Source: Paucidesulfovibrio gracilis DSM 16080
Lineage (GTDB): Bacteria; Desulfobacterota; Desulfovibrionia; Desulfovibrionales; Desulfovibrionaceae
NCBI RefSeq assembly: GCF_900167125.1
Contig: NZ_FUYC01000010.1
Coordinates: 1-64,000, forward strand
Direction: 5' to 3'
DNA length: 64,000 nucleotides
A program made the translations under genes and the position numbers. Below the pieces are notes generated by a model. The model worked only from the letters and a program-made list of their open reading frames with translations, had not been told where the DNA came from and searched no databases. How positions within the stretch are numbered: position 1 is the first letter of the stretch; every line of letters starts with the position of its first letter. This document shows positions 28,764 to 47,077 of this stretch, piece after piece.

Positions 28764-29698
28764 CAATAGTACCCGTACTCCTTGAGGTTCAGGTCATATT
28801 CCTCATCCAGACGCTGGTTGTCCTCCCGCATTTCTTCCAGGATGCGTGCGGCCAGGCGGCCGGAGAGTCCGGGGTCATTGCCGCGGTAAGGGCGGGGCCA
28901 GCGGTCGTGGATCAGGGCCACGGGGCTGACCAGTTCCAGGCGGTTGTTGCGGCGCATGGGCAGGCCGGGAAGGATGCCTGCGGGATTCAGGTAGCTGCGG
29001 AAAAAATGATTCATGATCCTGGTGCATTCCATGCCGAATGGTCCCAGGCGGGAAAGATTCAGCTTACGCGGGGGCAGATCCGGCAGGGAGACGCCGAGAA
29101 AGTCGGACATGCGCCCGAGGTAGTGGACCGGGTCGCGGACCATTGCCTCATGGGTGAGCAGGAGCAGTCCTTGGGGAAACAGTTCCTCCACCCGCCGGAC
29201 ATAGGGCAGGAAGCGGAAACGGTTTCGGCTGACCAGGGGTTGGGCCGTGGTCCCTTTGGCATAGCCGAAGTAGCGGTCCGCCCGGCGGGTGCCGCCGCTG
29301 CGTACATATTGCCGGTAGAAGCTGCGGGCCAGCCGGTCCTGGCGGCGCAGGGTGAGAATGACCCTGGCTTCCGGAAAGGCGGCGGAAAGATTGCGCAGCA
29401 CCGCGTCCCGGTGGTCCAGGCCGAATTCCAGTTCCCCGGCGTGCAGGGGACCGGAAAAGCCTTCATTGCTGATCAGGTTGGGACGACGGGTGTCCAGGAG
29501 GGAATCGATCATTGTCCGCGCTTTATTCGGATCAAAATAAATCGGGTCGCTGAATCCGGCGTACCGCTGGAAGGGCACGAATTCCGGGGTGTCCGTGCAA
29601 AGAAAGCGCAGGCTTTCACATCGGGGGAAGACCAGCTTTTGCAGGGAGGCGGTGCCGGTTTTGTGCAGACCGATGTGCAGGGTGACGGATGCGTTCAT
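28763..29698 (-). CDS. Sulfotransferase-like protein
   Basis: A 311-residue protein with PAPS-binding features: the 5'-phosphosulfate loop HIGLHKTGTASLQ (residues 8-20) and the 3'-phosphate motif ARVILTLRRQDRLARSFYRQY, where Arg/Ser contact the nucleotide. It lacks a signal peptide, so it probably sulfates a lipid-linked repeat unit in the cytoplasm. It begins within the flippase gene's last four bases (ATGA overlap) and overlaps the beta-helix gene by one base. Together with the second sulfotransferase and the APS kinase fusion at 42307 it suggests a sulfated polymer. The acceptor sugar is unknown. Confidence 0.82.
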   Translation of the reverse strand: MNASVTLHIGLHKTGTASLQKLVFPRCESLRFLCTDTPEFVPFQRYAGFSDPIYFDPNKARTMIDSLLDTRRPNLISNEGFSGPLHAGELEFGLDHRDAVLRNLSAAFPEARVILTLRRQDRLARSFYRQYVRSGGTRRADRYFGYAKGTTAQPLVSRNRFRFLPYVRRVEELFPQGLLLLTHEAMVRDPVHYLGRMSDFLGVSLPDLPPRKLNLSRLGPFGMECTRIMNHFFRSYLNPAGILPGLPMRRNNRLELVSPVALIHDRWPRPYRGNDPGLSGRLAARILEEMREDNQRLDEEYDLNLKEYGYY

Positions 29699-31197
29699 GC
29701 GGACTCCTCGGAAGGCTTCGATGGTTCACGGGCCTGCGCCAGGAGCTTGCGGAAGCGCAGGACATGGAAAAGAAGAAGATACCCGGCCAGGAGAAGCGCG
29801 GCAAGTCCGATCTCCGCCGGTGTTGCCAGGGCGTGCCCCGCGAGCAGATGCCGGACCGTGAAAAAGCCCGCGCCCAATACGGCGCTGACCAGGATGGGCG
29901 GCAGAATGCGGCGGGCCAGTTCCGGAGCGCGGACCCCGGCCTTGCCCATGACCCAGACCATGCGCACGGCCAGGGTCAGGCTGCTCCCGGCGGAAAGCCC
30001 CATCAGGGCGGCGTGGGCGTTGTCCGACGGGTCCAGTGCCGCGCCCAGGGTGAAGCCCGCGGCGGTTACGGTGATTTGCAGCAGGCTGAAGAGAAAACGT
30101 TCGCGTTGCAAGCCCAGGGTGTCCAGCAGGGTGCCGGTGAACAGGGCCGTGAAGGTGAGCAGGAACACGGGCAGGAGAATGCGCACAAACACCCCGGCCT
30201 CGGCCCATTCTGGACCGAACACGAAGCCGAACAGGTCCGGGGCAAAGGCCCAGAGCAGCACGGCCGGAAAAAGATAGAGCGTGAGGTTCACCTCGAGCAC
30301 GCGCAGGGCAAAGGCATGGATGTCCCGTCCTCGACGGCGTTCCTGGGCGGTATGCTGGAAAAAACTCTTGCCGATGGCGGTTCCCACCACGATGCCGGGT
30401 TGCTTGAGCACACGCACGGCCAGATTGTATAGCCCTACGCGCACGGGGTCGTAGTGCAGGGCCAGCAGAAATGTGGGCAGCTCCATGTTCAGGGAAAGCA
30501 CCAGGTCCGTGCCGCAATATTTGGGGAACTGGGCGTAGCGTTTGGCCATGGCCGGGATGCGGCGCACGGATTCCCGTGTGAATACGCCGTATCGTAAGCC
30601 GCGCCGGGGATCTCCGGCCAGCACCAGGGCCACCAAAAAATCACTGGCGGGTTTCATGGACGCCAGCACGGGCGGGGCGGCCCAGCCCGCCAGTCCACAG
30701 AGGATCACCGCGCTCCGGCTCCCCACCGCGCCCACGACCTGGGCCGTGGCCTGGCGGTGGAAACCCTTGTGCCGCAGGTTGCGTACCTGGAGCGTGAGGA
30801 AAAAACCGCAGAACAGACAGCCCGGCGGCAGCAGCAGGATGGTGGCCGTGGACTGGAATCCCAATAGATCGCGCAGAGGTTCAGGCGTACTCAGGACCAC
30901 GATGCCCAGCAGCAGGCTGAAGACCGTGACCAGGCCCAGGGTGAGCAGGGTCAGGGCGTCGGCGTCCTCTTCCGCCTCGGGCAGCATGATGGGTACGTTG
31001 TAGCGTAGGTGGGAAAGCGCGGCCAGCACCGTGATGCAGGAAAAGGCCAGGGCGAATTCCCCATAGGCGCTCGGCGCGAACAGCCGGGTGATGATGGGGA
31101 TGCTGCCCACGTTCACGGCTTGGGCCAGCACGTTGCCGCCCAGGAGGGTGAGCACGGAGCGCAGAAAACCGGGAGCCTTGGCCGGGGAGGCGCTCAT
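29695..31197 (-). CDS. Oligosaccharide flippase (Wzx/MATE-type polysaccharide transporter)
   Basis: A 500-residue protein with roughly twelve to fourteen hydrophobic helices. It begins LRSVLTLLGGNVLAQAVNVGSIPIITRLFAP (split over helix 1), the typical Polysacc_synt start, followed by YGEFALAFS. It would move undecaprenyl-diphosphate-linked repeat units across the inner membrane. Four-base overlaps with both neighbouring sulfotransferase genes indicate coupled translation, and imply that sulfation and flipping are stoichiometric steps. A short charged C-terminal tail follows the last helix. Confidence 0.9.
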   Translation of the reverse strand: MSASPAKAPGFLRSVLTLLGGNVLAQAVNVGSIPIITRLFAPSAYGEFALAFSCITVLAALSHLRYNVPIMLPEAEEDADALTLLTLGLVTVFSLLLGIVVLSTPEPLRDLLGFQSTATILLLPPGCLFCGFFLTLQVRNLRHKGFHRQATAQVVGAVGSRSAVILCGLAGWAAPPVLASMKPASDFLVALVLAGDPRRGLRYGVFTRESVRRIPAMAKRYAQFPKYCGTDLVLSLNMELPTFLLALHYDPVRVGLYNLAVRVLKQPGIVVGTAIGKSFFQHTAQERRRGRDIHAFALRVLEVNLTLYLFPAVLLWAFAPDLFGFVFGPEWAEAGVFVRILLPVFLLTFTALFTGTLLDTLGLQRERFLFSLLQITVTAAGFTLGAALDPSDNAHAALMGLSAGSSLTLAVRMVWVMGKAGVRAPELARRILPPILVSAVLGAGFFTVRHLLAGHALATPAEIGLAALLLAGYLLLFHVLRFRKLLAQAREPSKPSEESA

Positions 31198-32117
31198 GGT
31201 TGGTCCGTATCGGTTTTCCGCTCGGGCAGGTAGCCGAAATGATGCAGCATGTCTCCAGCGTGGCGGAGGATGGTTTCACGGTCCTGGTCGGAAAGCCGTT
31301 GGAGGCTGGGGGCGTTGTAGTCTGTGATGTTTTCGGCGCCGGTTCCGGCCACGGTGCGGCCAACGTTGAATTTTTCCCGGCTGGCGGCCTGGAGCGGTTG
31401 CGGCGGGAGTTCCAGAAAGTCGGCCAGTTTTGCCAAGGTCTGTTCCGGCTGGCCGGTCAGGTCTTCGTACCGCACGATGTGCAGGTGTTTGACCTGTGTT
31501 TGATGCTGCAAGAGCAGGCGGCAGGATGCGTCCCAATGGCGGGCCGCACGCTCCAGATCCTTGCCTGCCTTGCGCCGGATGCCTTCGCAGACCGCGAATC
31601 CGTCGCGCACCAGGGCGATGAACCGGCAGTCGAGCAGTTGGTCCAGTGCGGGCATTCGCGCCATGTTGGGCGGAGTTTTTTCCACCAGCACGGGATGCAG
31701 GGGCCGCGTGAAAAAGCGCATCCAATCGTGCAGCAGCCGGGGCATGCGTTGGGGAAGTTCGGCGGCGTCCGCTTCCAGGCGGTCCAATACTTCGGTCCAG
31801 ACCCGTTCGTGTCCGCGCAGGGGCATGCGCAGCAGCGCGCGGGTATTGTATTGGCCTTCCTCCCGCATGGTGGAGACCAGCCCGCTTTTGGCGAACAGGG
31901 CGTTGAGCAGGCTGGTGCCGGAGTTGTTGCAGCCCACAATGAACACCCAGGTGTGGGCCGTGGCGGTTTGTTGCCACGTTTGGGCAAAGTGGCGTTTGCC
32001 GCCCAGTTGCCAGGAAATGTCGTTACTTAGATCGCGCCGGGCCTGGGCCAGCACCCAGCGCAGCCGTTCCCATTTGCGTCGCGCCAAGGATACCGCGAAA
32101 TAATTGGTCCGGCTCAT
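31194..32117 (-). CDS. Sulfotransferase-family protein
   Basis: A 307-residue protein with a recognisable PAPS-dependent sulfotransferase core: FIVGCNNSGTSLLNALFAKSG (5'-phosphosulfate loop, near residues 57-77), LVEKTPPN, RFIALVRDGFAVCEG (3'-phosphate motif) and a HIVRYEDLTGQPEQTLAKLADFL segment typical of the family. It differs from the other sulfotransferase in the cluster, so the two probably act on different positions or sugars. ATG 32117 overlaps the preceding GT4 stop codon (ATGA), and its own stop overlaps the flippase start. No signal peptide is present. Confidence 0.85.
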   Translation of the reverse strand: MSRTNYFAVSLARRKWERLRWVLAQARRDLSNDISWQLGGKRHFAQTWQQTATAHTWVFIVGCNNSGTSLLNALFAKSGLVSTMREEGQYNTRALLRMPLRGHERVWTEVLDRLEADAAELPQRMPRLLHDWMRFFTRPLHPVLVEKTPPNMARMPALDQLLDCRFIALVRDGFAVCEGIRRKAGKDLERAARHWDASCRLLLQHQTQVKHLHIVRYEDLTGQPEQTLAKLADFLELPPQPLQAASREKFNVGRTVAGTGAENITDYNAPSLQRLSDQDRETILRHAGDMLHHFGYLPERKTDTDQP

Positions 32118-33268
32118 GCGTTGTCCTTTGTGTTGTCCTTGAGCGCAAAACCCGCGAAGCGCAGCGCCTTGGCCAGGGCCGAGGGGAAATCGTCCGGGCC
32201 GGTGCGCTGGGCGCGGGTTTGCAGCGCGGTTTTCGAGAGCCGTTCGCGCAGGTCCGCATCCAAAAGCACCCGTTCCAACTGCCGCCGCAGGTCGGTCACG
32301 CTGTCCGGTTCGTGGAGCAGCCCGGCTTCCTCGTGGCGGATGAAAAAGGCAAAGGGACCGAAGCGGGGTGCCACCACGGGAACGCCGCAATCCAGAGATT
32401 CCACGGCCGTCATGCAACGGCCTTCCGGGAAACTGGTGCGGGTGGGGGTGGCCGTTACCCAGGCCTGGGCCAGGTAGCGGGCCACGTCGCGGTGAGGCGC
32501 GTGTCCGGCCAGGGTGACGCGGTCCGTGAGACCGCGTTTGCGAATCTCGGCTTCCAGGTCGGCCAGACCGCCGCCTCCGCCTACATAGACGAGCCGTGGC
32601 TGCTCCAGGTCGCGTAGCAGGGGGGTCATGGCCTCCAGCAGGTCAAAGGCGCCTTTGTCCGTCTCTACGCGGCCCAGGTAGAGCACGTTGCGCGGACCGT
32701 CCGGGTCCGGGGCGGCGCATTGGTCCGGCAACTGGGTTCCCCGGTCGAACGGGAACAGCCCCTGTTGTCCTCCGCGAATGCGGGCCAGCTGGTCCGTCAG
32801 AAAGGGACCGTGGCATACGCAGGCTGCGGCCCGGCGCAGGCAAAACGCGTTCAGCCGGGCCTGGAGGCGTTGGCGGGCCGTGGGACGGCGGGCTTCCAGG
32901 TCGTTGTGGCTGGAAAAAATCAAGGTGGCGCGCAGCAGGGTGGCGGCCAGGGTGGAGGCAGCCAGGGCCAGGGAGGGTTCGCCGCAAATGATGACATCGG
33001 GTCGCTCGCGCAGCAGGGCCGTGAAGATACGGCAGGCCCGCCGCACACTGCCTGCCCCGCCCACGCCGCGCAGATGGAGCGGAGCACCCGGTTGGGCGGC
33101 GGCCTCGGGCGGTTCCCCCGTGGAGATCAGCAGTCCGGGAACCTGGTCCAGCACGCTCAGCAGTTGGGGAAGATACCCCTCGGGTCCGCTTTGCCCGGGG
33201 TGGGTCGGGTCACGGTGTGCCGCATACTCCTTAAGGGTGTTGCCGGATTTCACGTAGGCGAATTTCAT
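32114..33268 (-). CDS. Glycosyltransferase family 4
   Basis: A 384-residue GT-B transferase. The N-lobe starts MKFAYVKSGNTLKEYAAHR; the C-lobe has NVLYLGRVETDKGAFDLLEAM, RVTLAGHAPHRDVARYL and RTSFPEGRCMTAVESLDCGVPVVAPRFG, where the E-x-x-x-x-x-x-E pattern is relaxed. It adds one sugar of the repeat unit. The chosen ATG 33268 overlaps the stop of the upstream GT4 gene by 4 bases; the frame is open ten codons further but would overlap more deeply. Confidence 0.88.
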   Translation of the reverse strand: MKFAYVKSGNTLKEYAAHRDPTHPGQSGPEGYLPQLLSVLDQVPGLLISTGEPPEAAAQPGAPLHLRGVGGAGSVRRACRIFTALLRERPDVIICGEPSLALAASTLAATLLRATLIFSSHNDLEARRPTARQRLQARLNAFCLRRAAACVCHGPFLTDQLARIRGGQQGLFPFDRGTQLPDQCAAPDPDGPRNVLYLGRVETDKGAFDLLEAMTPLLRDLEQPRLVYVGGGGGLADLEAEIRKRGLTDRVTLAGHAPHRDVARYLAQAWVTATPTRTSFPEGRCMTAVESLDCGVPVVAPRFGPFAFFIRHEEAGLLHEPDSVTDLRRQLERVLLDADLRERLSKTALQTRAQRTGPDDFPSALAKALRFAGFALKDNTKDNA

Positions 33269-34611: not shown

Positions 34612-36114
34612 TCAGGATGAAAAATAGCGGCGGTATAATTCCTCGCCGGTTTCCTTCTGCACGACGAAGCGGTCCGGCGTGGAAAGCGGTTCGGGCTTCG
34701 GGCCAGGACTTCGGGATTCTTCGGCACGTTCGGATGCCGCTTGCTCCCGGAGATGCGGAAACCGTGAGCGGGCCTCGCTGAGTCCCATGCAAATGAACAC
34801 GACATGGGGCATGAATCCGTGCATGATGCCGTTGAAGAGGCAGTTGTTGAGCACGAGCAGGGTGGCCAGAAGCTGCCAGCGGATGGGATGGTCCAGGGGG
34901 GCGAATCGGTTCATGCGGGCGGCGTGGCTGAGGAGAAAAAACAGATAGAGCGCGTAGCCCACCACTCCGCTGTATTCCAGCCATTCCACGTGGAAGTTGT
35001 GCTGGGTGATGACCTGGGGACCGCGATACAGTCCCAGGCCCAGGAAGGGGTGTTCCAAAAAATTACTCAGGCCGGATTGGAACTGGGCCACGCGGCCGTA
35101 AAGTGCGTCCTTCCAGTTTTCCACGTTGGTGAGCCGCTGCTCCGTGCGGTATTCCTCAGCCGTGAAAATGGTCTGGTCCGGCTCGATGAACTGGGCGTAG
35201 ATGATCAGCATGAAAGTGGCCAGCAGGGAGGCGCCGAAAAAGGCCACGAACAGCGTGATGGCCTTGCCCTTCTTGATCAGCAGGTAGCAGAAGGGCGTGA
35301 GCACCGAGAGTACCAGGAATACGCGGGAAAAGGTCAGGAACATGGCGGCCACGCAGAGCAGGGCCAGGGGGATGCGCAGCTTGCGCGGCACCACGTCGCT
35401 GCCCATGACCAGGCACGCGCCGAAGGCCATGAGCGTGGCGGTACTGATGGCCGGGGTTCCCAGGGGAATGGCCCGTTGCCCGGTTTGCAGCCAGAAGGCC
35501 ACGGCCATGACCGCGAATCCGAGCATGCCGAGCACCATGTAGCGCAGCAGGGAACGGTATTCCTCTTCATTGGTGATCATGACCCGCAGCACATAGTAGG
35601 CCACCACGGGCTGGAACAGGAAGTTGAAGGCTAGAAAGCCGCTGTCCACCACGTCCGGACTGCGCAGGGTGCCGATGAAATAGACTACGCAGACCCCGGC
35701 AAGAAAAAGGTCCGTGAGGGTCAGCTTGAGCCGGGCGCGCTGAAAAATCAGCCGCAGCACGGCAATGCCGGCAAAGAGCAAGAGACCCGCGGAATAGGGG
35801 TTGAAGGTGATGATGCCTACTTCAACCTTGAAGATTTGATAGGAAAAGGGAAAGAACGCAAAGATCACGCCCAGCACGGCCGCCGGGTTGACCACCAGGG
35901 TGAACAGGCCGATGCAGCCGTAAAGCAGCGCCACCGTGAGGATGTTGTCGCGGAATCCGTCCAGGCCGAATCCGGCGTACAAAAAGCCCGTGAGAATCGC
36001 CAGCACCACGCCCACATAGACCGTGACCACCCGGCGGATGGTCAGGGTTCTGCGGGGGGCGGCCGCGCCAGGTTGCCGCGGGAACGCCGGGGGGGTGCCG
36101 GTGCGGACGGGCAT
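34612..36114 (-). CDS. O-antigen ligase/polymerase-family membrane protein (Wzy-like)
   Basis: A 500-residue protein with about twelve helices; a large periplasmic loop around residues 305-370 has the PF04932-type segment ending in FLEHPFLGLGLYRGPQVITQHNFHVEWLEYSG, where His and Arg are characteristic. The cytoplasmic tail (430-500) is charged and probably disordered. In exosortase loci this protein polymerises or ligates the repeat units. It starts four bases after the ATPase gene ends, so the genes are cotranscribed. Whether it polymerises or ligates cannot be decided from sequence. Confidence 0.85.
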   Translation of the reverse strand: MPVRTGTPPAFPRQPGAAAPRRTLTIRRVVTVYVGVVLAILTGFLYAGFGLDGFRDNILTVALLYGCIGLFTLVVNPAAVLGVIFAFFPFSYQIFKVEVGIITFNPYSAGLLLFAGIAVLRLIFQRARLKLTLTDLFLAGVCVVYFIGTLRSPDVVDSGFLAFNFLFQPVVAYYVLRVMITNEEEYRSLLRYMVLGMLGFAVMAVAFWLQTGQRAIPLGTPAISTATLMAFGACLVMGSDVVPRKLRIPLALLCVAAMFLTFSRVFLVLSVLTPFCYLLIKKGKAITLFVAFFGASLLATFMLIIYAQFIEPDQTIFTAEEYRTEQRLTNVENWKDALYGRVAQFQSGLSNFLEHPFLGLGLYRGPQVITQHNFHVEWLEYSGVVGYALYLFFLLSHAARMNRFAPLDHPIRWQLLATLLVLNNCLFNGIMHGFMPHVVFICMGLSEARSRFPHLREQAASERAEESRSPGPKPEPLSTPDRFVVQKETGEELYRRYFSS

Positions 36115-36118
36115 GGAC

Positions 36119-37096
36119 TCAGACCTGCCCGGCCACGGCCTTTTGCCGCGAGAGTTGCCGTGTGAGGTGGCGCACGGCCTGTTCCAGCCGGTCGATCCTG
36201 TTCCGCAATGCCTCCACTTCCGCGCTCGGGGCGGGCTGTTCCGGTCCCATGAGCTTGCCCGAGGAGGTCAGCAAAATGCCGTCCTTGGCCTTATCCCGGA
36301 TGATTTCCTGGGCGATGTGCCCGTCAATGGAGGATTTGGCGTCGGCAAAGGCGTAGATCAAGGAGAGGTTGCAGAGAATGTTCATGACCCGGGGGACGCC
36401 GCCCGAAGCCGAATGGATGGCTTCCACGGCATCGTCCGAGAACAGGGACGAGGGCTTGGGATGTCCGGCCACGGAAAGGCGGTGCTCGATGTAGGGCCGG
36501 GCTTCCTCGGGGCGGAGCGAGGCCAGGTGGCAGGAAACGGCGATGCGTTGGGCCAGATAGGTCTTGCTCGGCTCCATGATGCGCCGACGCAGTTCGTTTT
36601 GTCCGATGAGCAGGATTTGCAGGAGGATGTCCTCCCCGGACTGGAGGTTGGAGATCATGCGGACTTCCTCAAGGGTCCGGTCCGGCAGGCTTTGGGCCTC
36701 GTCCAGCACCAGGAGGACGCGCTTGTCGCGCCGTTGCTGCCGCAGCAGGTACTCGTTGAGGATGCGCACCTGGGTGGCGGCTGTTTCGCCTCCTTCCAGG
36801 CGGACGCCCAATTCCTGAAGGATGGAGTTTACCAGAGAGTCTTCCACCAGGGTGGTGTTGGGAATCTCGATGACTTCCAGGGCGTTGACCTGCCGGAGTT
36901 TGTCCAGCAGATACCGGCTGAGGGTGGTCTTGCCCGCGCCCACTTCCCCGGACATGAGGATCAGGCCGCTGCGGTCCACCAGACCGTACTTGAGGAAGGT
37001 CAGCGCAGCCTTGTGGCTTTTACCCAGGTAGAGGTACTTGGGACTGGCCGCAAGGGCGAAGGGCTTTTCCTCGAATCCGAAAAATTGATTGTACAT
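36119..37096 (-). CDS. GspA/ExeA-like AAA+ ATPase of exosortase loci
   Basis: A 325-residue AAA+ ATPase: MYNQFFGFEEKPFALAASPKYLYLGKSH is the typical opening, Walker A is SGEVGAGKTT (about 49-58), Walker B VLLVLDEAQSLP, sensor-1 LLIGQNELRRR, and the family-specific GGVPRVMNILCN segment follows. A coiled-coil tail (about 283-315) replaces the peptidoglycan-binding domain seen in secretion-system members. In PEP-CTERM/XrtA loci this ATPase stands beside the chain-length protein and tyrosine kinase, as here. It probably energises or regulates assembly of the export machinery at the inner membrane; the exact role is not known. Confidence 0.88.
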   Translation of the reverse strand: MYNQFFGFEEKPFALAASPKYLYLGKSHKAALTFLKYGLVDRSGLILMSGEVGAGKTTLSRYLLDKLRQVNALEVIEIPNTTLVEDSLVNSILQELGVRLEGGETAATQVRILNEYLLRQQRRDKRVLLVLDEAQSLPDRTLEEVRMISNLQSGEDILLQILLIGQNELRRRIMEPSKTYLAQRIAVSCHLASLRPEEARPYIEHRLSVAGHPKPSSLFSDDAVEAIHSASGGVPRVMNILCNLSLIYAFADAKSSIDGHIAQEIIRDKAKDGILLTSSGKLMGPEQPAPSAEVEALRNRIDRLEQAVRHLTRQLSRQKAVAGQV

Positions 37097-37114: not shown

Positions 37115-37870
37115 CTACACGGTTTCCCGGGCCTTGTTCAGGACCGTGCCCAGCACCTTGTCTCGTTCGAGCAGGTCCAGGGCGTGGGTGATTTGTCGCG
37201 TGGTGGTCCGGCCCGCCTCCACCACCAGGAGAATCTGGTCCACGTAGGAGGAAAAGACCAGAGCGTCCGGTACGCGGAGCAGCGGCGGGCAGTTGAAGAT
37301 CACGTAGCGGTCCGGGTAGCGGTCTTTCATCTCCTGCACGAGGGTGCGCATTTTCGGGGAGCCGAGAATCTCGGTGGAACCCGCGATGGTGCGTCCCACC
37401 GGAAGCAGGGCCAGCTTGTCCAGGTCTGTGCGGACCATCAGATCGGAGATGGGCGCATCGTCCATGAGATAGTCGGAGAGTCCGCGTTTGGTGGAGATGC
37501 CGAAGTATTTGTCCACCACGGGATTGCGCAGGTGGGTATCCACCAGCAGGGAGAAGCGGTTCAACTCCCGGGCGATGCTGATGGCTAGGTTCACGGCCGT
37601 GAGCGACGAGCCTTCGCCCGGCATGGCCGAGGTGACCATGATCACGTTCTTGTTTTCGCCGCGTGTGCGTTGCAGCACCTGGGTGCGCAACAGGTTGTAG
37701 TGGTCCAGCACGGCCGGGTCGCTGATGCCGCCGATGACCATGTTCCTGGCCATGTGCGCCTTGTTCAGCTTGACGGTTTTGGAGCTGCCGCCCCGTTTTC
37801 CGGTGCGGCTTGCTGGTTGCAGCGTATCGGTTTCAACGGCCTTTAACATGGCCTTGGCGAGTTTGTTCAT
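37115..37870 (-). CDS. BY-kinase-family protein (CpsD/XrtA-associated type) with degenerate Walker motifs
   Basis: A 251-residue homologue of bacterial tyrosine autokinases that regulate chain length by phosphorylating their own C-terminal tyrosines. The fold is clear (VIMVTSAMPGEGSSLTAVNLA, SLLVDTHLRNP, YVIFNCPPLLRVPDA), but three features are missing: the Walker A lysine is Ser-88 (PGEGSS for PGEGKS), the Walker B aspartate is Asn-193 (VIFNCPP for VIFDSPP), and there is no C-terminal tyrosine cluster. Walker A' Asp-111 is kept. The gene sits between the chain-length protein and the ATPase, so it was probably retained for a structural, non-catalytic role. Confidence 0.88.
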   Translation of the reverse strand: MNKLAKAMLKAVETDTLQPASRTGKRGGSSKTVKLNKAHMARNMVIGGISDPAVLDHYNLLRTQVLQRTRGENKNVIMVTSAMPGEGSSLTAVNLAISIARELNRFSLLVDTHLRNPVVDKYFGISTKRGLSDYLMDDAPISDLMVRTDLDKLALLPVGRTIAGSTEILGSPKMRTLVQEMKDRYPDRYVIFNCPPLLRVPDALVFSSYVDQILLVVEAGRTTTRQITHALDLLERDKVLGTVLNKARETV

Positions 37871-37942: not shown

Positions 37943-39685
37943 CTAGAAGAGGTTCTGGACCAAACGCATAACGAGCAGGTGCAGCGGTTCCACAAGGAAG
38001 TGGAAGAGCAGCAGCCCCGCGGCCGCGGCCAGGATGATGACCGGCAGCAATCGTTTTCGGAAGGTCTGCATTCTCGTCAGCGCCGGTCCCTCGCCCAGGA
38101 CGGGGATGACGGCCAGCACGGGCATTCCCGTGATCGCGCTCAACTCATCCGCATCATGCACGGTGCGGTCCAGCAGGTGGCCGGTGAAGCCGATGCCCGC
38201 TCCCAGGGTCAGGGAGAGCACAAATCCCAGGGCAAAGAGCAGGGGGCGGTTCGGGCTGTGGGGCTTATCCGGCAGCACGGGCGGATCCACCAGGGTGAAT
38301 TGTTCGCCCAGGCCGGATTCTTCCAGTCCCTTGGATTCCTTGGCGGCCAGCATGCGCTTGAGCAGCTCGTCCCGTTCCGTGGTCAGGGTATCCAGTTCGG
38401 AAACCAGGATGTTGTACTGCACTTCCACCTGGGGAGCGGTGTCGATGCGGTGCTGGATTTCCTCGCGTTGTTCCAGGAGTCCCTCGACATCGCGGCGCAG
38501 GCGCGCAACGTTGATCTTGGTGCTTTCCAGTTCGTTTTTGGCCTGGACCCACTGGGGGTTCAGCTCCATTTCCTTGTGTTTGGGCTTGATCAGGAATCGC
38601 TCGGAAAGGGAGTCGATGTCCGCGTGGAGCTGGTCCACCTCGGCCTGGAGACGGCGTACGTCCGGATGCTCGGGCGTATAGGTCTTCAGGAGCATGGCCA
38701 GTTCGTTTTCCTTTTGTTCCAGCTCGGTGGAATATTCTTCCATGTCCTGCCGGTATTTGACCTGTTCTTCCAGGGCGTCCACTTGTTTTTGCAGGGTGAT
38801 CACGTCGGGGTGGTCCGCGGACTTGGTGGCTTTGAGCGCCACCAGGTCACGCCGCATGCGGTCCAGTTCTTCTTCCGGGGTGATCAGACGCTGGCCCCCC
38901 GTGGTGCGGACCTGGATATACTGGGGCTTGGCCGCCAGCTCCCCGGTCCAGTATTGCTGCTTGGTGAGGTTTTTTTCCAGGTCGTCTTCCTTGAAGCGCA
39001 GGTTGCCCTCCACCCTGTCCAGCAGGCGGATGTTCACGGGCATCAGCTCGGGAAGGTAGAATTTGTTTTCTTCCTTGAATTCACCGATGCGGCGTTCCAC
39101 GTCGGAAATTTGGGCGTCCAGGTTTTCCAGGCGGCCCTCCAGGTACTCAAAGGCCGAGCGGGTCTGGTGCTCGCGGCTTTTGATGTTGGCTTCCAGGTAC
39201 AGGGACACAAGCCGGTTGGTAACCTGGAGCACTTTGTCCGGGTTTTTCCCGTCAAAGGAGAGCGTGAAGGCGTAGGTGGCGGTACCCGAACGGGCGCGTT
39301 CGGCGTCGTGCACCTCGGTGGTGACCATTTCCACCTGGATGTTGTCGCGCATCTTGGCGATGATTTCGCTCATGGACTGCCGTCCGCGCTCCGCGGAGTA
39401 GAGGTCGAACTGCTCGATGATGTCCACCAGGCGGGAGCGGCTGAGCATGGTCCGGTTCAGGGCTTCGAGCCGTTCCTCGATGAGTCCGGTGACCGTGGTC
39501 TGCACCAGGTCTTCGGGGATGTCCTGCGTTTCAATGAGGATCAGCCCTTGCGAGCGGTAGATGGACGGCAGAAAAAGCGCGAGCATGGCACAGATGACCA
39601 TGGCCCCCACCGCCGGTACAAGGCATTGCCATTTTCTGCGCTTGAACACGCGCAGGTAAAATTGCAGATCGTTTTGAAATTCCAT
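37943..39685 (-). CDS. Polysaccharide chain-length determinant (Wzz/GNVR, XrtA-system type)
   Basis: A 580-residue inner-membrane protein with one helix near each end (about 21-40 and 548-566) flanking a long periplasmic coiled coil (150-440) and the GNVR-like segment. The N-terminal DLQFYLRVFKRRKW and SIYRSQGLILIE belong to the Wzz domain. It sets polymer length and bridges the inner-membrane complex to the export channel. It is the first gene of the minus-strand operon, divergent from the Wza-like gene. Unlike many chain-length proteins it has no cytoplasmic kinase fused; the kinase-like protein is separate and degenerate. Confidence 0.9.
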   Translation of the reverse strand: MEFQNDLQFYLRVFKRRKWQCLVPAVGAMVICAMLALFLPSIYRSQGLILIETQDIPEDLVQTTVTGLIEERLEALNRTMLSRSRLVDIIEQFDLYSAERGRQSMSEIIAKMRDNIQVEMVTTEVHDAERARSGTATYAFTLSFDGKNPDKVLQVTNRLVSLYLEANIKSREHQTRSAFEYLEGRLENLDAQISDVERRIGEFKEENKFYLPELMPVNIRLLDRVEGNLRFKEDDLEKNLTKQQYWTGELAAKPQYIQVRTTGGQRLITPEEELDRMRRDLVALKATKSADHPDVITLQKQVDALEEQVKYRQDMEEYSTELEQKENELAMLLKTYTPEHPDVRRLQAEVDQLHADIDSLSERFLIKPKHKEMELNPQWVQAKNELESTKINVARLRRDVEGLLEQREEIQHRIDTAPQVEVQYNILVSELDTLTTERDELLKRMLAAKESKGLEESGLGEQFTLVDPPVLPDKPHSPNRPLLFALGFVLSLTLGAGIGFTGHLLDRTVHDADELSAITGMPVLAVIPVLGEGPALTRMQTFRKRLLPVIILAAAAGLLLFHFLVEPLHLLVMRLVQNLF

Positions 39686-42145: not shown

Positions 42146-42306
42146 CGTGGAAAGAATGGAACGTTTTTCCCCTGCCGGTGTCCAATGACATTGCCGGCCG
42201 TGCGGTACGCTTGAGCACGCTTGCCTGGCAAGGGGGAGCCTGCTATCGAAGTGCCGAAGCCACGCCTGTTGGCACGTTACCGGATCAGCAACCCCGGGGG
42301 ATCCCC

Positions 42307-43989
42307 ATGCCGTCATCTGTCTTACTTCCTGATGCCGAAGTGCGCGAACTGCGTGCTGCTCTGCCGCAACTGCCGTATCTGAATTTGGGGCGCCGGGCGC
42401 TTTGCGATCTGGAATTGCTCATGCAGGGCGCTTTTGCCCCGCTCTCCGGCTACATGAACCAAACACAGTACCAGAGTGTGCTGGAAAGCATGCATCTGCC
42501 TGACGGCTCCCTGATTCCTTTGCCCGTGTGTCTGGATTTTTCCGCGACGTTGGCAGAAAAGCTGGAGCCGGGAGGCCGCCTGGTGCTCAACGACCAGGAA
42601 GGTTTTCCCCTGGCTGTGCTTGAGGTGGAGGATTTGTGGCAGCCGGACAAACGGGCCGAAGCCCGGGCCGTATTCGGTACGGACGATGCCTCGGTTCATG
42701 CCGGGGTCCGGCGTTTTTTTGAAGAAACCGGCGCTTGGTACGCGGGCGGAACGATCCTGGGATTGCACTTGCCCATGCACCACGATTCCATGGACCTGCG
42801 CCGTTCGCCCGAGGAATGGCGGGCTGTGATGCAGCGGCAGGGCTGGGCCAGGGTGCTCGGGGCGCATCCACACGGCGCCTTGCATCGCGTGGACCGGGAA
42901 ATCCTGCTGCGTGCGGCGCGTCGGGCGGACGCGGGGCTGTTGTTGCTGCCTGCCGCGGACCAGCCGTTTTTGGTGGATGCGGACCACTTCCACAAGGTTC
43001 GGTGTCATCGTGCCTTTTACGAGCATCTGCCCGAAGGCTTGGCCGAATTGGGGCTGCTGCCCCTGGCCTGCCGCGGGGCGGGACCGCGTGAAGCGCTTTT
43101 TCAGGCGCTGACTCTGCGTTCCTGCGGATGCACGCATTTTCTCGTGGAGCCGGACCAGGGAGAACCGCGTCCGCTCAACGGTGGCCGGGCCTACGCGCCG
43201 GGCGCCGTGTTTGACCTGTTGGAAAAATATGCCCCGGAATCCGGGGTGGAGCCGGTCCCTTCGGATGCGTTGCGGTTCCATTCCCGCAAAAAATGCTTTG
43301 TTCCGGCGCAGGATACCTCATTGGACGAGGTGGAAACGCCGCCCACGTCCGAGGAGCTGGATATCCTGTTGGAGCATGGCCGGGAAATCCCCTCCTGGTT
43401 CACCTTTCCCGAGGTGTTGGACGAGATGCGGCGCGCCCATCCCCCACGCCACGAGCAGGGGCTGTGCGTTTTTTTTACCGGGCTTTCCGGCGCGGGCAAA
43501 TCCACTTTGGCGAAAATTCTGTACGTCCGGTTCATGGAGCAGGGTACCCGTCCGGTAACGCTTCTCGACGGGGACATCGTGCGCCGCAATCTTTCCAGCG
43601 AACTGGGGTTCAGCCGGGAGCACCGCGTGCTCAACGTCACCCGCATCGGCTTTGTGGCCTCGGAAATCGTCAAGAATCGGGGCATCGCCATCTGCGCGCC
43701 CATTGCTCCCTATGAAGAGGCGCGCCGGGCCAATCGGGAATTGATTTCCCAGTACGGCGGCTATGTGGAGGTGCATGTCTCCACCTCACTGGCCACCTGC
43801 GAGGCCCGGGACCGCAAGGGGCTGTACGCCAAGGCCAAGGCCGGGTTGAAAAAGGGCGTCACCGGCGTGGACGACCCGTTCGAGCCGCCGCAGCATGCGG
43901 ATTTGGCCCTGGACACGGCGGGCCTTGCCCCTGAGGATGCGGCGCGCAAGATTTTGCTGTTGCTGGAGCAAAAGGGATACGTGCGTTGA
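42307..43989 (+). CDS. Sulfate adenylyltransferase-like domain (probably inactive) fused to APS kinase
   Basis: A 560-residue fusion of the ATP-sulfurylase/APS-kinase type. The C-terminal APS kinase (about 383-560) is intact: P-loop GLSGAGKST (392-400), LLDGDIVRRNLSSELGFSREHR, PYEEARRANRELI and VDDPFEPP; it makes PAPS from APS and ATP. The N-terminal sulfurylase domain has the fold-defining LPDGSLIPLPVCLD and GPREALFQALT...CTHFLV, but both active-site motifs are gone: the QTRNPxHxxH loop reads AHPHGALHRVD (186-196), and GRDHAG reads EPDQGE (281-286). APS must then come from the cell's main sulfurylase. PAPS would feed the two sulfotransferases of the locus. A terminator precedes the gene. Confidence 0.88.
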   Translation: MPSSVLLPDAEVRELRAALPQLPYLNLGRRALCDLELLMQGAFAPLSGYMNQTQYQSVLESMHLPDGSLIPLPVCLDFSATLAEKLEPGGRLVLNDQEGFPLAVLEVEDLWQPDKRAEARAVFGTDDASVHAGVRRFFEETGAWYAGGTILGLHLPMHHDSMDLRRSPEEWRAVMQRQGWARVLGAHPHGALHRVDREILLRAARRADAGLLLLPAADQPFLVDADHFHKVRCHRAFYEHLPEGLAELGLLPLACRGAGPREALFQALTLRSCGCTHFLVEPDQGEPRPLNGGRAYAPGAVFDLLEKYAPESGVEPVPSDALRFHSRKKCFVPAQDTSLDEVETPPTSEELDILLEHGREIPSWFTFPEVLDEMRRAHPPRHEQGLCVFFTGLSGAGKSTLAKILYVRFMEQGTRPVTLLDGDIVRRNLSSELGFSREHRVLNVTRIGFVASEIVKNRGIAICAPIAPYEEARRANRELISQYGGYVEVHVSTSLATCEARDRKGLYAKAKAGLKKGVTGVDDPFEPPQHADLALDTAGLAPEDAARKILLLLEQKGYVR

Positions 43990-44111: not shown

Positions 44112-45644
44112 ATGGAAAAACTGCGTGCCTATCGACCGCTGCTGCTGGCGTTGGGGTTCTGGTTCGTGTGCGCGGCCGTGCTGTTCGGCCCGCATCTGTC
44201 CGGCCTGATTTGGCGTTGGGGTGGCGAGGATAATTCCTATTGTTGGCTTGTGCCGCCGATTTTTCTGTATATGCTCTACCAGGGGCGGGATCGGTATTTC
44301 CCGCTCTGTCCGTCCGGCAGCCCATTGGCTTCGCCTGTGCTGCATCTGGTACTGGCCGTATTTTTTTTGACCGGTGTGCTCGGCTCGTTGGAAACCCTGG
44401 TCTACGGAGGCATGTGGCTTGCCGTGGCCGCCCTGCTCGCCGCGGCCGGTGGATTCGCCATCCTGCGGCGGATCTGGTTTCCCCTGCTGGTGTTGGCCTT
44501 TGCCGTCCCCCTGCCCGCCTTCATCAACCGGCTGCTCACTTTTCGCCTGCGCCTGCTTTCCACGGAGCTTTCCGTCCGTTTTTTGGAGTTGCTGCGCATC
44601 CCGGCCTTTGCGGACGGGAACATCATCGACATGGGCGTGACCAAGCTGCAGGTGGTGGATGCGTGCAGCGGACTGCGGTATCTCATGCCCGCCGTTCTCA
44701 TGGGGCTGGTACTGGGCTGGTTTTTCCATTCCCAATTGTGGAAACGCGCACTGCTGACGGTTTTGGCCGTGCCTGTGACCATCCTCGCCAATGCCTTGCG
44801 CATTGCCATGACCGGCGTTCTGGTGGCCTATGTCTCCCCCGAGTTTGGGCAGGGATTTTTGCACGATTTTTCCGGTTGGCTGGTCTACATGGTTTCCATC
44901 GGCCTGCTTGGGGTGGCCAGCGTGCTGCTCCGGCCCGACAGCCGTGATGGTCGGCTCCGGCAAACGGAGCCGGGAGCGCGCTTCTGCCATATGCATCCGA
45001 ACGTGTGGCCACGGTTGTTGGTGGGCGGTATGATCCTGCTGGCGGCCGCGGGTGCCGGAGAGCTGTTGCTGCATCGGCAGAGTGCGCCCCCGCGTGAAAC
45101 CTTCGCCACCTTCCCGCTGCGCGTGGGAGACTGGCAGGGAAAGCGCTTTTATCTGGAGCAGGAGATCCTGGATCAACTCTGGGCCGACGACTACGTGACC
45201 GCCAATTACCGCAACGAGCACACCGGCAACGGGCTGCATCTCATGGTTTCATACTATGCACGGCAGACCACGGAGCACACGGCGCATGCGCCGACGTCCT
45301 GTTTGCTGGGCGGCGGCTGGGATCTGGTTTCCCGACGGACCCTGCCCCCGGCGCCCGAAAACGGCCGGGGATTCCCCGTGGTGCGGCTGCTGCTCCAAAA
45401 GCCGGGGGCCACGGTTATTTCAAACTTTTGGTTCCAGCAGCGGGGCCGGGTCATCACCAGTGAATGGCTGAACAAGCTCTGGCTGGTTGTGGACTCTCTG
45501 CGCATGGGCCGGTCGGACGGAGCGTTGATCCGGGTGGAATTGTATCTCCAACCCCACCAGTCGCCCGAGCAGGGCCAAGAGTTGCTGGACCGATTTACTG
45601 CGGATTTGTTCCGCGAGTTGCGACCCTATCTGCCGGGACGTTGA
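44112..45644 (+). CDS. Exosortase fused to an EpsI domain (XrtD-like)
   Basis: A 510-residue protein. Residues 1-290 are a polytopic exosortase with the catalytic trio Cys-185 (VVDACSGLRY), Arg-230 (ILANALRIAMTG) and His-251 (GFLHDFSGW), which cleaves and transfers proteins bearing a PEP-CTERM-like tail. Residues 315-510 form a periplasmic EpsI (DUF3485) domain with a FATFPLRVGDWQG start. This fused layout is typical of XrtD, the VPLPA-CTERM-specific enzyme of deltaproteobacteria, which I consider the best guess. No protein with such a sorting tail is encoded in the window. It lies between the APS-kinase fusion and the priming transferase. Confidence 0.85.
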   Translation: MEKLRAYRPLLLALGFWFVCAAVLFGPHLSGLIWRWGGEDNSYCWLVPPIFLYMLYQGRDRYFPLCPSGSPLASPVLHLVLAVFFLTGVLGSLETLVYGGMWLAVAALLAAAGGFAILRRIWFPLLVLAFAVPLPAFINRLLTFRLRLLSTELSVRFLELLRIPAFADGNIIDMGVTKLQVVDACSGLRYLMPAVLMGLVLGWFFHSQLWKRALLTVLAVPVTILANALRIAMTGVLVAYVSPEFGQGFLHDFSGWLVYMVSIGLLGVASVLLRPDSRDGRLRQTEPGARFCHMHPNVWPRLLVGGMILLAAAGAGELLLHRQSAPPRETFATFPLRVGDWQGKRFYLEQEILDQLWADDYVTANYRNEHTGNGLHLMVSYYARQTTEHTAHAPTSCLLGGGWDLVSRRTLPPAPENGRGFPVVRLLLQKPGATVISNFWFQQRGRVITSEWLNKLWLVVDSLRMGRSDGALIRVELYLQPHQSPEQGQELLDRFTADLFRELRPYLPGR

Positions 45645-45658
45645 GGGAGTATAGCCGC

Positions 45659-47077
45659 GTGTTCGCCCAACAGGTGCATATCGTTATTTCGTTCATGATC
45701 CTCGTGGAGGGGGCGGTCGTCATTGCCTGCGGGTATCTGGCGGCCTACCTGCGCTGGCTGGTCAGCGGCTACCTCTGGCGGGCGGACGGTTCGGCCCTGG
45801 TGGGCATCATTTTGTTTCTCATGTTTGTGAATTCCTTCATGATCGGTCGTATGGGGCTGTACAGCGACCGGCGGCCCGGCTCCCTGTTCAACCTGGCCTG
45901 GCGGCTGGCCGTGGTGGTGACCGTGGATTTCGCCGCCCTGTTCGTGGCGTTGTTTGCCCTCAAGTACGACGACATCGGCCGGCTTTTTCTGCTCATCTAC
46001 GCGGCGTTGCTGTACGTGTCGCTCTTCGTGGCCCGCGCCCTGCTTGATGTCTATATGGATCGTCGGGCCAGACGGGGCTTCAACCGCCGACAGGTGCTGG
46101 TGGTGGGGTCGGACGAACGCGCCCAGGCCATGGTGCAGGCCTTGGGGCAGCAGCGCAGCTGGGGGCATGAGGTGGTGGGCTGTCTGAAACCGGATCCGCA
46201 CGCGGCCAATGCCTGCTATGACGTGCCGGATTTAGGCGTGGTGGCGGATTTTGACGCGGTGGTTCGGTCGCACAGCGTGGACGAGGTGGTTTTCGTGTTG
46301 CCTCGCGATGGGAATCTGGCTCCCATGATCGAGGAGTGCCGACGGCTCGGGCTTTCCTATCGCGTGGTGCCGTCCATGTATGATCCGCAAGATCCCATGC
46401 CCCTTTCCGTGGAACGCATTCAGGGCATTCCCACGCTGTCCTGGAACGCGGTGCGCATCAATGCCAGCGGACTGTTTTATAAAACAGTGGTGGACTACTT
46501 GGTTGGCATTGTGGGATTTTGCCTTTTTGTGCTGGTCTATCCGTTTGTGGCGTTGGCCATTAAATGGGATTCGCCGGGACCGGTGCTTTTTCGCCAGCCC
46601 CGGGTGGGGCAGAACCGGCGCATTTTTCAGATGTATAAATTTCGGAGCATGTATGTCGATGCGGAGGCGCGCAAGGCTGAACTCCGGCAGGGCAATCTCA
46701 TGGGCGGCAAGGACGGGCAGATGTTCAAGCTGGAGCACGACCCCCGCATCACGCGGGTGGGGGCGTTCCTGCGGCGCACCTCCCTGGACGAGCTGCCCCA
46801 GTTCATGAACGTGCTCCGTCGGGAGATGAGCGTGGTGGGTACGCGGCCGCCCACTCTGGATGAGGTGGAGCGGTACGAGGATTGGCATTATCGCCGTATG
46901 AGCATGAAGCCAGGAATCACGGGGCTTTGGCAGATTTCCGGCCGGAACAAGATCAACGATTTTGATGAAGTGGTCCGTCTGGACCTGCAATATATCGACA
47001 ATTGGCGTTTTTTGGACGATCTTTTCATCATCTGGAAAACGCTTTTCGTGGTTCTGCGGCGCAAGGGCGCGCTGTAG
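45659..47077 (+). CDS. Polyprenyl-phosphate sugar-phosphate transferase (initiating transferase, WbaP/EpsE type)
   Basis: A 472-residue membrane protein. Four helices (about 5-110) precede a nucleotide-binding Rossmann-like region (RQVLVVGSDERAQAM, 139-153), then a further membrane hairpin (275-300) and the bacterial sugar-transferase domain: PVLFRQPRVGQNRRIFQMYKFRSM, LRRTSLDELPQFMNVLRREMSVVGTRPPT and MKPGITGLWQISGRN. It transfers a sugar-1-phosphate to undecaprenyl phosphate to start the repeat unit. The GTG at 45659 is chosen for the GGGAG nine bases upstream; it follows the exosortase stop by 14 bases. Upstream in-frame codons overlap the exosortase gene. Confidence 0.9.
   Translation: MFAQQVHIVISFMILVEGAVVIACGYLAAYLRWLVSGYLWRADGSALVGIILFLMFVNSFMIGRMGLYSDRRPGSLFNLAWRLAVVVTVDFAALFVALFALKYDDIGRLFLLIYAALLYVSLFVARALLDVYMDRRARRGFNRRQVLVVGSDERAQAMVQALGQQRSWGHEVVGCLKPDPHAANACYDVPDLGVVADFDAVVRSHSVDEVVFVLPRDGNLAPMIEECRRLGLSYRVVPSMYDPQDPMPLSVERIQGIPTLSWNAVRINASGLFYKTVVDYLVGIVGFCLFVLVYPFVALAIKWDSPGPVLFRQPRVGQNRRIFQMYKFRSMYVDAEARKAELRQGNLMGGKDGQMFKLEHDPRITRVGAFLRRTSLDELPQFMNVLRREMSVVGTRPPTLDEVERYEDWHYRRMSMKPGITGLWQISGRNKINDFDEVVRLDLQYIDNWRFLDDLFIIWKTLFVVLRRKGAL

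Follow-up and report, generated by a model that had tools for sequence, protein, structure and literature searches.

A predicted BY pseudokinase beside a polysaccharide co-polymerase in an XrtD-type exopolysaccharide locus of Paucidesulfovibrio gracilis

Gene content and motif residues of the locus

The window, a DNA stretch of 64,000 nucleotides (Paucidesulfovibrio gracilis DSM 16080, contig NZ_FUYC01000010.1, positions 1 to 64,000), contains a polysaccharide locus with a BY-kinase homologue, encoded by one open frame of 251 aa plus stop that runs on the minus strand from 37870 to 37115. The initial annotation gave these coordinates correctly and left out the strand. The genes and motifs of the locus are:

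37115..37870, minus: BY-kinase homologue (predicted pseudokinase); TIGR03018 220.9 bits (cut-off 230.65), TIGR01007 120.9 bits (cut-off 108.05)
37604..37621, minus: degenerate Walker A PGEGSS, residues 84-89; Ser-88 codon 37607-37609
37526..37549, minus: Walker A' LLVDTHLR, residues 108-115; Asp-111 retained, His-113 (37532-37534) in place of the second Asp
37286..37303, minus: degenerate Walker B VIFNCP, residues 190-195; Asn-193 codon 37292-37294
37685..37705, minus: position of the EX2RX2R ring-interface motif, here DHYNLLR (DX2NX2R), residues 56-62
37766..37798, minus: basic N-terminal linker KRGGSSKTVKL, residues 25-35
37118..37138, minus: C-terminus NKARETV, residues 245-251, lacking a tyrosine tail
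37943..39685, minus: polysaccharide co-polymerase (PCP-2, chain length determinant), presumed partner; TIGR03007 251.9 bits (cut-off 278.85)
38102..38170, minus: PCP cytoplasmic segment DRTVHDADELSAITGMPVLAVIP, residues 506-528, presumed docking segment; likeness judged by eye
36119..37096, minus: AAA ATPase of the kind found in XrtA-type loci; GEVGAGKTT and LLVLDEAQ look intact (motifs read manually); TIGR03015 269.9 bits (cut-off 324.5)
44112..45644, plus: exosortase XrtD (VPLPA-CTERM type) fused to an EpsI-like domain; TIGR04152 464.8 bits (cut-off 400), TIGR02914 106.5 bits (cut-off 42.8), PF09721, PF11984
40249..40872, plus: outer-membrane polysaccharide export protein (OPX); PF02563, SLBB, TIGR03027 118.4 bits (cut-off 180)
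34612..36114, minus: Wzy_C / O-antigen ligase-like polymerase or ligase; PF04932 41.6 bits (cut-off 31.7)
29695..31197, minus: Wzx-like flippase; PF13440 41.4 bits (cut-off 23)
45464..47077, plus: initiating sugar-phosphate transferase; TIGR03025 402.2 bits (cut-off 295.55)

The homology of the window protein to BY-kinases is clear. It scores above the TIGR01007 cut-off, its top sequence matches among solved structures (PDB sequences) are the BY-kinases VpsO (1.8e-23, phmmer), BceF, CapB, and Wzc, and the nearest folds retrieved by Foldseek are again BY-kinases, VpsO first, for a low-confidence structure model (mean pLDDT 54.3, three sequences in the alignment) that is too poor to judge the pocket. 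The best NCBIfam match is TIGR03018, the XrtA-associated tyrosine autokinase family, below its curated cut-off; the relatives L004 and L006 score 214.5 and 216.4 bits against this family, and the tailless fragments L008, L026, and L027 score 224.4, 177.1, and 199.8 bits.

Missing from the protein are the Walker A lysine, the second Walker A' aspartate, the Walker B aspartate, the C-terminal tyrosine cluster, and the EX2RX2R motif, all of them features of an active BY-kinase, the last described as a ring-interface motif for CapB in the available text of PMC3795738. Ser-88 (TCG) stands in place of the lysine and Asn-193 (AAC) in place of the Walker B aspartate, both as stated in the initial annotation, which missed the replacement of the second Walker A' aspartate by His-113 (CAC); the first, Asp-111 (GAT), is retained. 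The tyrosine cluster is indeed absent, the C-terminus reading ...VLNKARETV with no tyrosine among the seven residues past position 244, and the six tyrosines of the protein (58, 122, 134, 185, 189, and 209) being spread over the domain with none beyond 209. This absence is, however, not peculiar to the gene, as 43 other rows of its clade in the 101-row tree described below have zero or one tail tyrosine. The further claim that the codons are not single-error relics stands for TCG, which is two changes from AAG, but not for AAC, which a single transition separates from the Asp codon GAC; at Asn-193, sequencing error is excluded because four assemblies share the residue.

The PCP gene lies directly upstream and the AAA ATPase gene directly downstream of the pseudokinase gene, and the locus also holds a TPR protein and two glycosyltransferases. 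The PCP (37943-39685) matches PCP families alone and its C-terminus carries no kinase domain; the window pairs a stand-alone BY-kinase homologue with a kinase-domain-free PCP-2. Its cytoplasmic segment, which follows the second membrane helix and ends in PVLAVIP in the window, is similar by eye across the sequences compared. The outgroup distance of the PCP is 1.51 in the pseudokinase genus vs. 1.09 in the sister group, and that of the kinase 0.92 vs. 0.84. A fused ATP-sulfurylase/APS kinase (42178-43989, plus) and two sulfotransferase-like proteins (31194-32417 and 28763-29698, both minus) are also encoded in the locus, which suggests that the bacterium makes a sulfated exopolysaccharide. Further downstream along the minus-strand genes, a frame of 823 aa (26295-28766, minus) has a pectate-lyase/epimerase-like domain (PF12708) and is possibly a polysaccharide lyase of the locus.

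Shared losses, selection, and order of events

The pseudokinase group comprises four genes, from the window (G000), two genomes of the same genus (G001 and G002), and a genome of another genus in the same family (G023). All four have an open frame with the same losses. Residue 88 is always small (S, A, C, and A, respectively), and His-113 and Asn-193 are identical throughout, which bears out the conservation of the substitutions in relatives. A contig of a named Desulfovibrio MAG (L033) bears the same gene as G002. Protein searches gave matches in all three genomes of the genus (own genome included). At the wider ranks, 62 of the 247 family genomes were matched at E 1e-20, 93 of the 348 order genomes at 1e-25, and 126 of the 395 phylum genomes at 1e-30. 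We read 162 kinase genes, namely all listed family and order matches, L034, and 60 from the phylum list (the best-scoring, minus one at a contig edge), a sample skewed to near relatives, from which prevalence cannot be read. Before counting, we dropped L002 (a weak match and no BY-kinase), L033 (same gene as L003), L065 (truncated), and L058 (frame break). Of the 161 genes aligned, 154 stand-alone relatives were left once five fused kinases were removed, together with L038 and L159 (truncated or at a contig edge).

Residue 88 is other than Lys in six of the 154 stand-alone relatives, the four pseudokinases plus L127 (Arg) and L146 (Thr), all six with zero tail tyrosines, and replacement of the Walker B aspartate is confined to the four pseudokinases. 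Counted as rows, which are not independent events, replacements of the second Walker A' aspartate number 39 among the 66 rows that lack a tail tyrosine, 2 among the 10 that have a single one, and 0 among the 78 that have at least two; the first aspartate is replaced in 4, 0, and 1 of these rows, respectively. The first position of EX2RX2R is Glu in most rows with at least two tail tyrosines (71/78), in three of the ten with one, and in seven of the 66 with none. Comparison by independent pairs gave no significance for tail loss against the D113 change, with only five supported pairs, nor against the E56 change (five independent supported pairs), where equally many pairs run in reverse.

Two further sets of sequences show partial changes. 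L127 and L146, both tailless and from elsewhere in the phylum, keep the remaining motif residues and are possible independent pseudokinases. In L086, L087, and L088, tailless proteins from another family of the order, the first Walker A' aspartate is replaced by Gly (VGANFR/VGANIR) and the Walker A lysine is retained, which is a putative separate partial loss.

Across the 41 tailless relatives in the order clade, 22 positions do not vary, and of these K88 and D193 alone differ in all four pseudokinases; four are altered in at least one pseudokinase and 18 are kept in all four. With the positions treated as equal, the chance that two random picks of the 22 would be K88 and D193 is 1/231. As a control, in 14 sister proteins two of 24 positions invariant in 27 others are altered in some and none in all, and on the same 24 positions the pseudokinases have four altered in some and two in all. 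Pairwise dN/dS among the three congeners (NG86; the PCP alignment is partial, 475-487 codons) is 0.19-0.26 for the pseudokinase, 0.18-0.24 for the PCP, and 0.20-0.23 for the ATPase, and protein identity is highest for the pseudokinase (83%, vs. 71%-76% for the PCP and 78%-80% for the ATPase). The pseudokinase gene is maintained as a protein under purifying selection. Three catalytic residues are gone, as might be expected of a decaying gene or a sequencing error, yet this explanation is refuted by the intact frame with the same losses in 4/4 genomes, the dN/dS of 0.19-0.26, and the 18/22 invariant positions kept, and its probability is negligible.

The order of the losses was traced on trees, the 101-row tree being built with the motif columns excluded. 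In it, all 43 tailless rows (zero or one tail tyrosine) and the four pseudokinases share one side of a branch with an SH-aLRT of 94, and the tail, K88, and D193 cost one change each. In the 44-row tree, the pseudokinase clade has a support of 94/85 and its union with seven sister-group rows 92/84; L006 joins the genus at a node that has support (94/85) but no star. A starred clade of 31 rows (98/96) encloses the pseudokinases, and each of its other 27 rows lacks the tail and retains K88 and D193. Parsimony places the loss of the tail before that of the catalytic residues, the tree count leaving a regain possible. Tail loss is common, since tailless rows also fall outside the 31-row clade and 11 tail changes are required over the phylum set.

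The possibility that catalytic residues have been relocated, for instance to a lysine of the basic linker, so that the protein is still an active kinase, was considered together with the alternative P-loop that the initial annotation had named as evidence against its own reading. None of three scanned P-loop patterns matches the window protein. Its linker holds a weak P-loop-like string, RGGSSKT (residues 26-32), which we take for a Gly/Lys-rich linker because residues 1-51 have a pLDDT under 50 in the poor model and the sequence differs among the four proteins. The linker of L006, whose real Walker A is lost, fits P-loop patterns (AKGGGGKSKT, kinase residues 26-34), probably by chance as another Gly/Lys-rich linker. 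K31, T32, and K34 are identical in the four pseudokinases and missing from the 14 sister proteins, and among 27 other tailless proteins K31 is found in eight and K34 in three, in an alignment that is loose in the linker. The shared K31 and K34 and the L006 match would fit a relocated site, but linker length and composition vary, residues 1-51 are poorly modelled, the Walker B aspartate is gone too, and no tyrosine cluster is left as a target, making continued kinase activity very improbable.

Partner genes, nucleotide site, and a possible role in co-polymerase control

Genes for the PCP and the ATPase adjoin the kinase gene in all four pseudokinase loci, and each does so in 41 of 43 tailless loci. 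At tyrosine-tailed loci, the PCP was found in 34 of 49 and the ATPase in 42 of 49, counts in which short flanks and the use of window-protein queries may cause misses. As both neighbours are constant in the pseudokinase loci, the ATPase directly downstream looks intact, and XrtD lies about 7 kb away, the protein could dock within the locus and have as its main client the AAA ATPase, the polymerase, or the exosortase side instead of chain length. This is improbable, as the PCP segment matching the modelled docking region of EpsV is retained and the known BY pseudokinases act on a PCP, according to the available text of PMC12004946.

Pairing with a second, active BY-kinase can be rejected, as the own genome, 99.85% complete, has none above the TIGR01007 cut-off, its remaining matches (42 bits or less) being taken for MinD/ParA-type ATPases, and G002 and G023 (89% and 67% complete) have none either. 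G001 encodes one fused, tyrosine-tailed kinase at another site. A missing phosphatase was likewise rejected as a marker of lost phosphorylation: low molecular weight (LMW) phosphatases occur in eight of nine genomes searched, with or without the pseudokinase, including two matches in the own genome, and phosphotyrosine chemistry as such need not be lost.

The nucleotide pocket deserves separate consideration. The window protein retains Asp-111 and most of the P-loop backbone, which leaves nucleotide binding possible, and the missing lysine is no proof of lost nucleotide binding because solved structures of the lysine-less Wzc K540M carry MgADP, as far as their available description goes. The protein may still bind nucleotide and act, free of phosphorylation, as a nucleotide-sensing switch on the PCP. 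Consistent with this, G85-E-G87 of the P-loop is kept in three of the four pseudokinases (N-E-G in L006), Ser/Thr-89 and Asp-111 are present in all four, MgADP is found in the Wzc K540M structures, and the retention of K88 and D193 in 41/41 tailless relatives suggests a nucleotide-using ancestor without a tail. Against it, three ligand residues are altered at once, two of them in the same way in each of the four proteins, and residue 88 can be one of several small residues, as would be expected if the pocket were out of use; we regard a retained nucleotide switch as unlikely, though less so than the relocated site or the other clients.

We favour, with a probability of roughly 0.7, the reading that the window protein is a BY pseudokinase which, docked on the PCP, supports the assembly of polysaccharide independently of phosphorylation. 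The designation as a pseudokinase, already made in the initial annotation, is well supported by the clade-conserved, selective substitutions, the missing tail, and the retained partner gene; the accompanying claim that it controls chain length structurally may hold by analogy, given the PCP partner and the EcpK and HfsB precedents. We infer a loss of catalysis, docking on the PCP, cycling independent of phosphorylation, and an effect on chain length. The pseudokinase would form the cytoplasmic half of a two-part PCP-2 and dock on the cytoplasmic segment (38102-38170) of the adjoining PCP, and its binding and unbinding, instead of tyrosine phosphorylation, would support the assembly or gating of the Wzx/Wzy-type machine in the XrtD-type exopolysaccharide locus. 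A protein lacking both site and tail would resemble a permanently unphosphorylated state. Since the PCP is thought to cycle between assembly and disassembly, a driver other than phosphorylation would be required. One candidate is the pseudokinase itself, through binding and unbinding, a mechanism suggested for EcpK and HfsB in the available text of PMC12004946; a more speculative one is the neighbouring ATPase.

The exosortase type adds a further dimension. The window exosortase scores 152.9 bits against TIGR03109 (XrtA), whose cut-off is 208, and no XrtA was identified in the locus; the NCBIfam name 'XrtA-associated' fits the window protein by resemblance alone because the locus exosortase is XrtD. 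TIGR04152 is also the best match of the exosortases of five relatives, three above the cut-off and two, both fragments, below. VPLPA-CTERM has one match above the cut-off and seven below in the own genome, and control genomes also give matches below the cut-off. XrtD is above the cut-off in 37 of 46 order genomes with a tailless or pseudokinase gene, the XrtD of G002 falling under it in a gene cut by the contig end, and in none of the 34 order genomes searched in which tyrosine-tailed genes alone were found (9 further genomes of this type, of 89 listed, were left out of the survey). In the 37 XrtD genomes, both genes lie within 25 kb of each other in 28, farther apart on one contig in four, and on different contigs in five. 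In all six genomes with both stand-alone kinase types, XrtD starts 2.2-4.5 kb from the start of the tailless gene and is not near the tailed one. A general rule linking tail loss and XrtD was rejected: it holds in the order, but XrtD is above the cut-off in 35 of 55 further phylum genomes, some with tyrosine-tailed kinases (e.g. G542, G442, and G425). The association between XrtD and tailless genes is clade-structured and may reflect inheritance of the whole locus type.

These patterns could reflect a two-step rebuilding of co-polymerase control in the XrtD (VPLPA-CTERM) loci of the order, a tentative view to which we assign somewhat less than even odds, in which the tail and the ring motif were lost first and the nucleotide site later. 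In the first stage, the nucleotide site would stay fixed and serve as a nucleotide-driven, phosphorylation-free switch; in the second, one lineage would lose this site too, and the protein would be retained as a pure docking part. The order offers relatives at each stage (with tail and site, with the site only, and with neither) beside the same partner genes, and the roles of phosphorylation, nucleotide, and docking are therefore separately testable. If the two-step view is true, the window protein and its relatives would be a natural series separating the phosphorylation, nucleotide, and scaffold roles in PCP-2. Calling this branch 'XrtA-associated tyrosine autokinase', after the family, is likely to mislead, as both the exosortase type and the activity seem to differ from what the name says.

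Comparison with known BY pseudokinases

Among the open-licence papers listed, judged by title, we found no bacterial BY pseudokinase case beyond EcpK and CapB1 (PMC3795738), nothing joining XrtA with a tyrosine autokinase, and, in the matches listed for VPLPA-CTERM or XrtD, none on the present subject. Within its available text, PMC12004946 also names BY pseudokinase/PCP-2 pairs of Syntrophus and Acidiphilium from an earlier sequence survey, and EcpK is mentioned in the available part of another Myxococcus paper (PMC12802240). The window protein resembles the TIGR03018 family in its neighbours, a PCP and an ATPase of matching XrtA-type families, and differs from it in scoring below the curated cut-off and in the locus exosortase, which is XrtD rather than XrtA. 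Like the window protein, CapB1 of Staphylococcus aureus is a BY-kinase homologue without detected activity that has been proposed to be pseudokinase-like (PMC3795738, available text), but it was solved in complex with ADP-Mg (4jlv), so that it does bind nucleotide and its inactivity has a different cause.

Among the closest precedents by description is EcpK (MXAN_7447) of Myxococcus xanthus, a BY pseudokinase partnered with the PCP EpsV, the C-terminal part of which was modelled in the groove of EcpK (PMC12004946, available text). Both are stand-alone BY-kinase homologues without working Walker motifs and tail, and both belong to a Wzx/Wzy-type exopolysaccharide pathway whose PCP has no kinase domain. 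All four members of the pseudokinase group share with EcpK and HfsB the absence of catalytic motifs and tail. EcpK, which is known here by description alone, lacks all three motifs, is not encoded next to epsV, and carries a basic C-terminal helix, as far as the available text of PMC12004946 describes it. In contrast, the window protein keeps Asp-111 and most of the P-loop backbone, is encoded directly downstream of the PCP, and has no C-terminal extension, its basic stretch being N-terminal. HfsB of Caulobacter crescentus, likened here by description, is likewise a stand-alone pseudokinase without catalytic residues or tail and is important for its PCP partner HfsA (PMC12004946, available text); unlike the window locus, it serves the holdfast pathway. 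BY pseudokinases paired with PCP-2 have already been described in EcpK and HfsB, and the window protein joins them, whereas the stepwise series from kinase to tailless to dead protein, together with the link to XrtD (VPLPA-CTERM) within the order, appears to be new.
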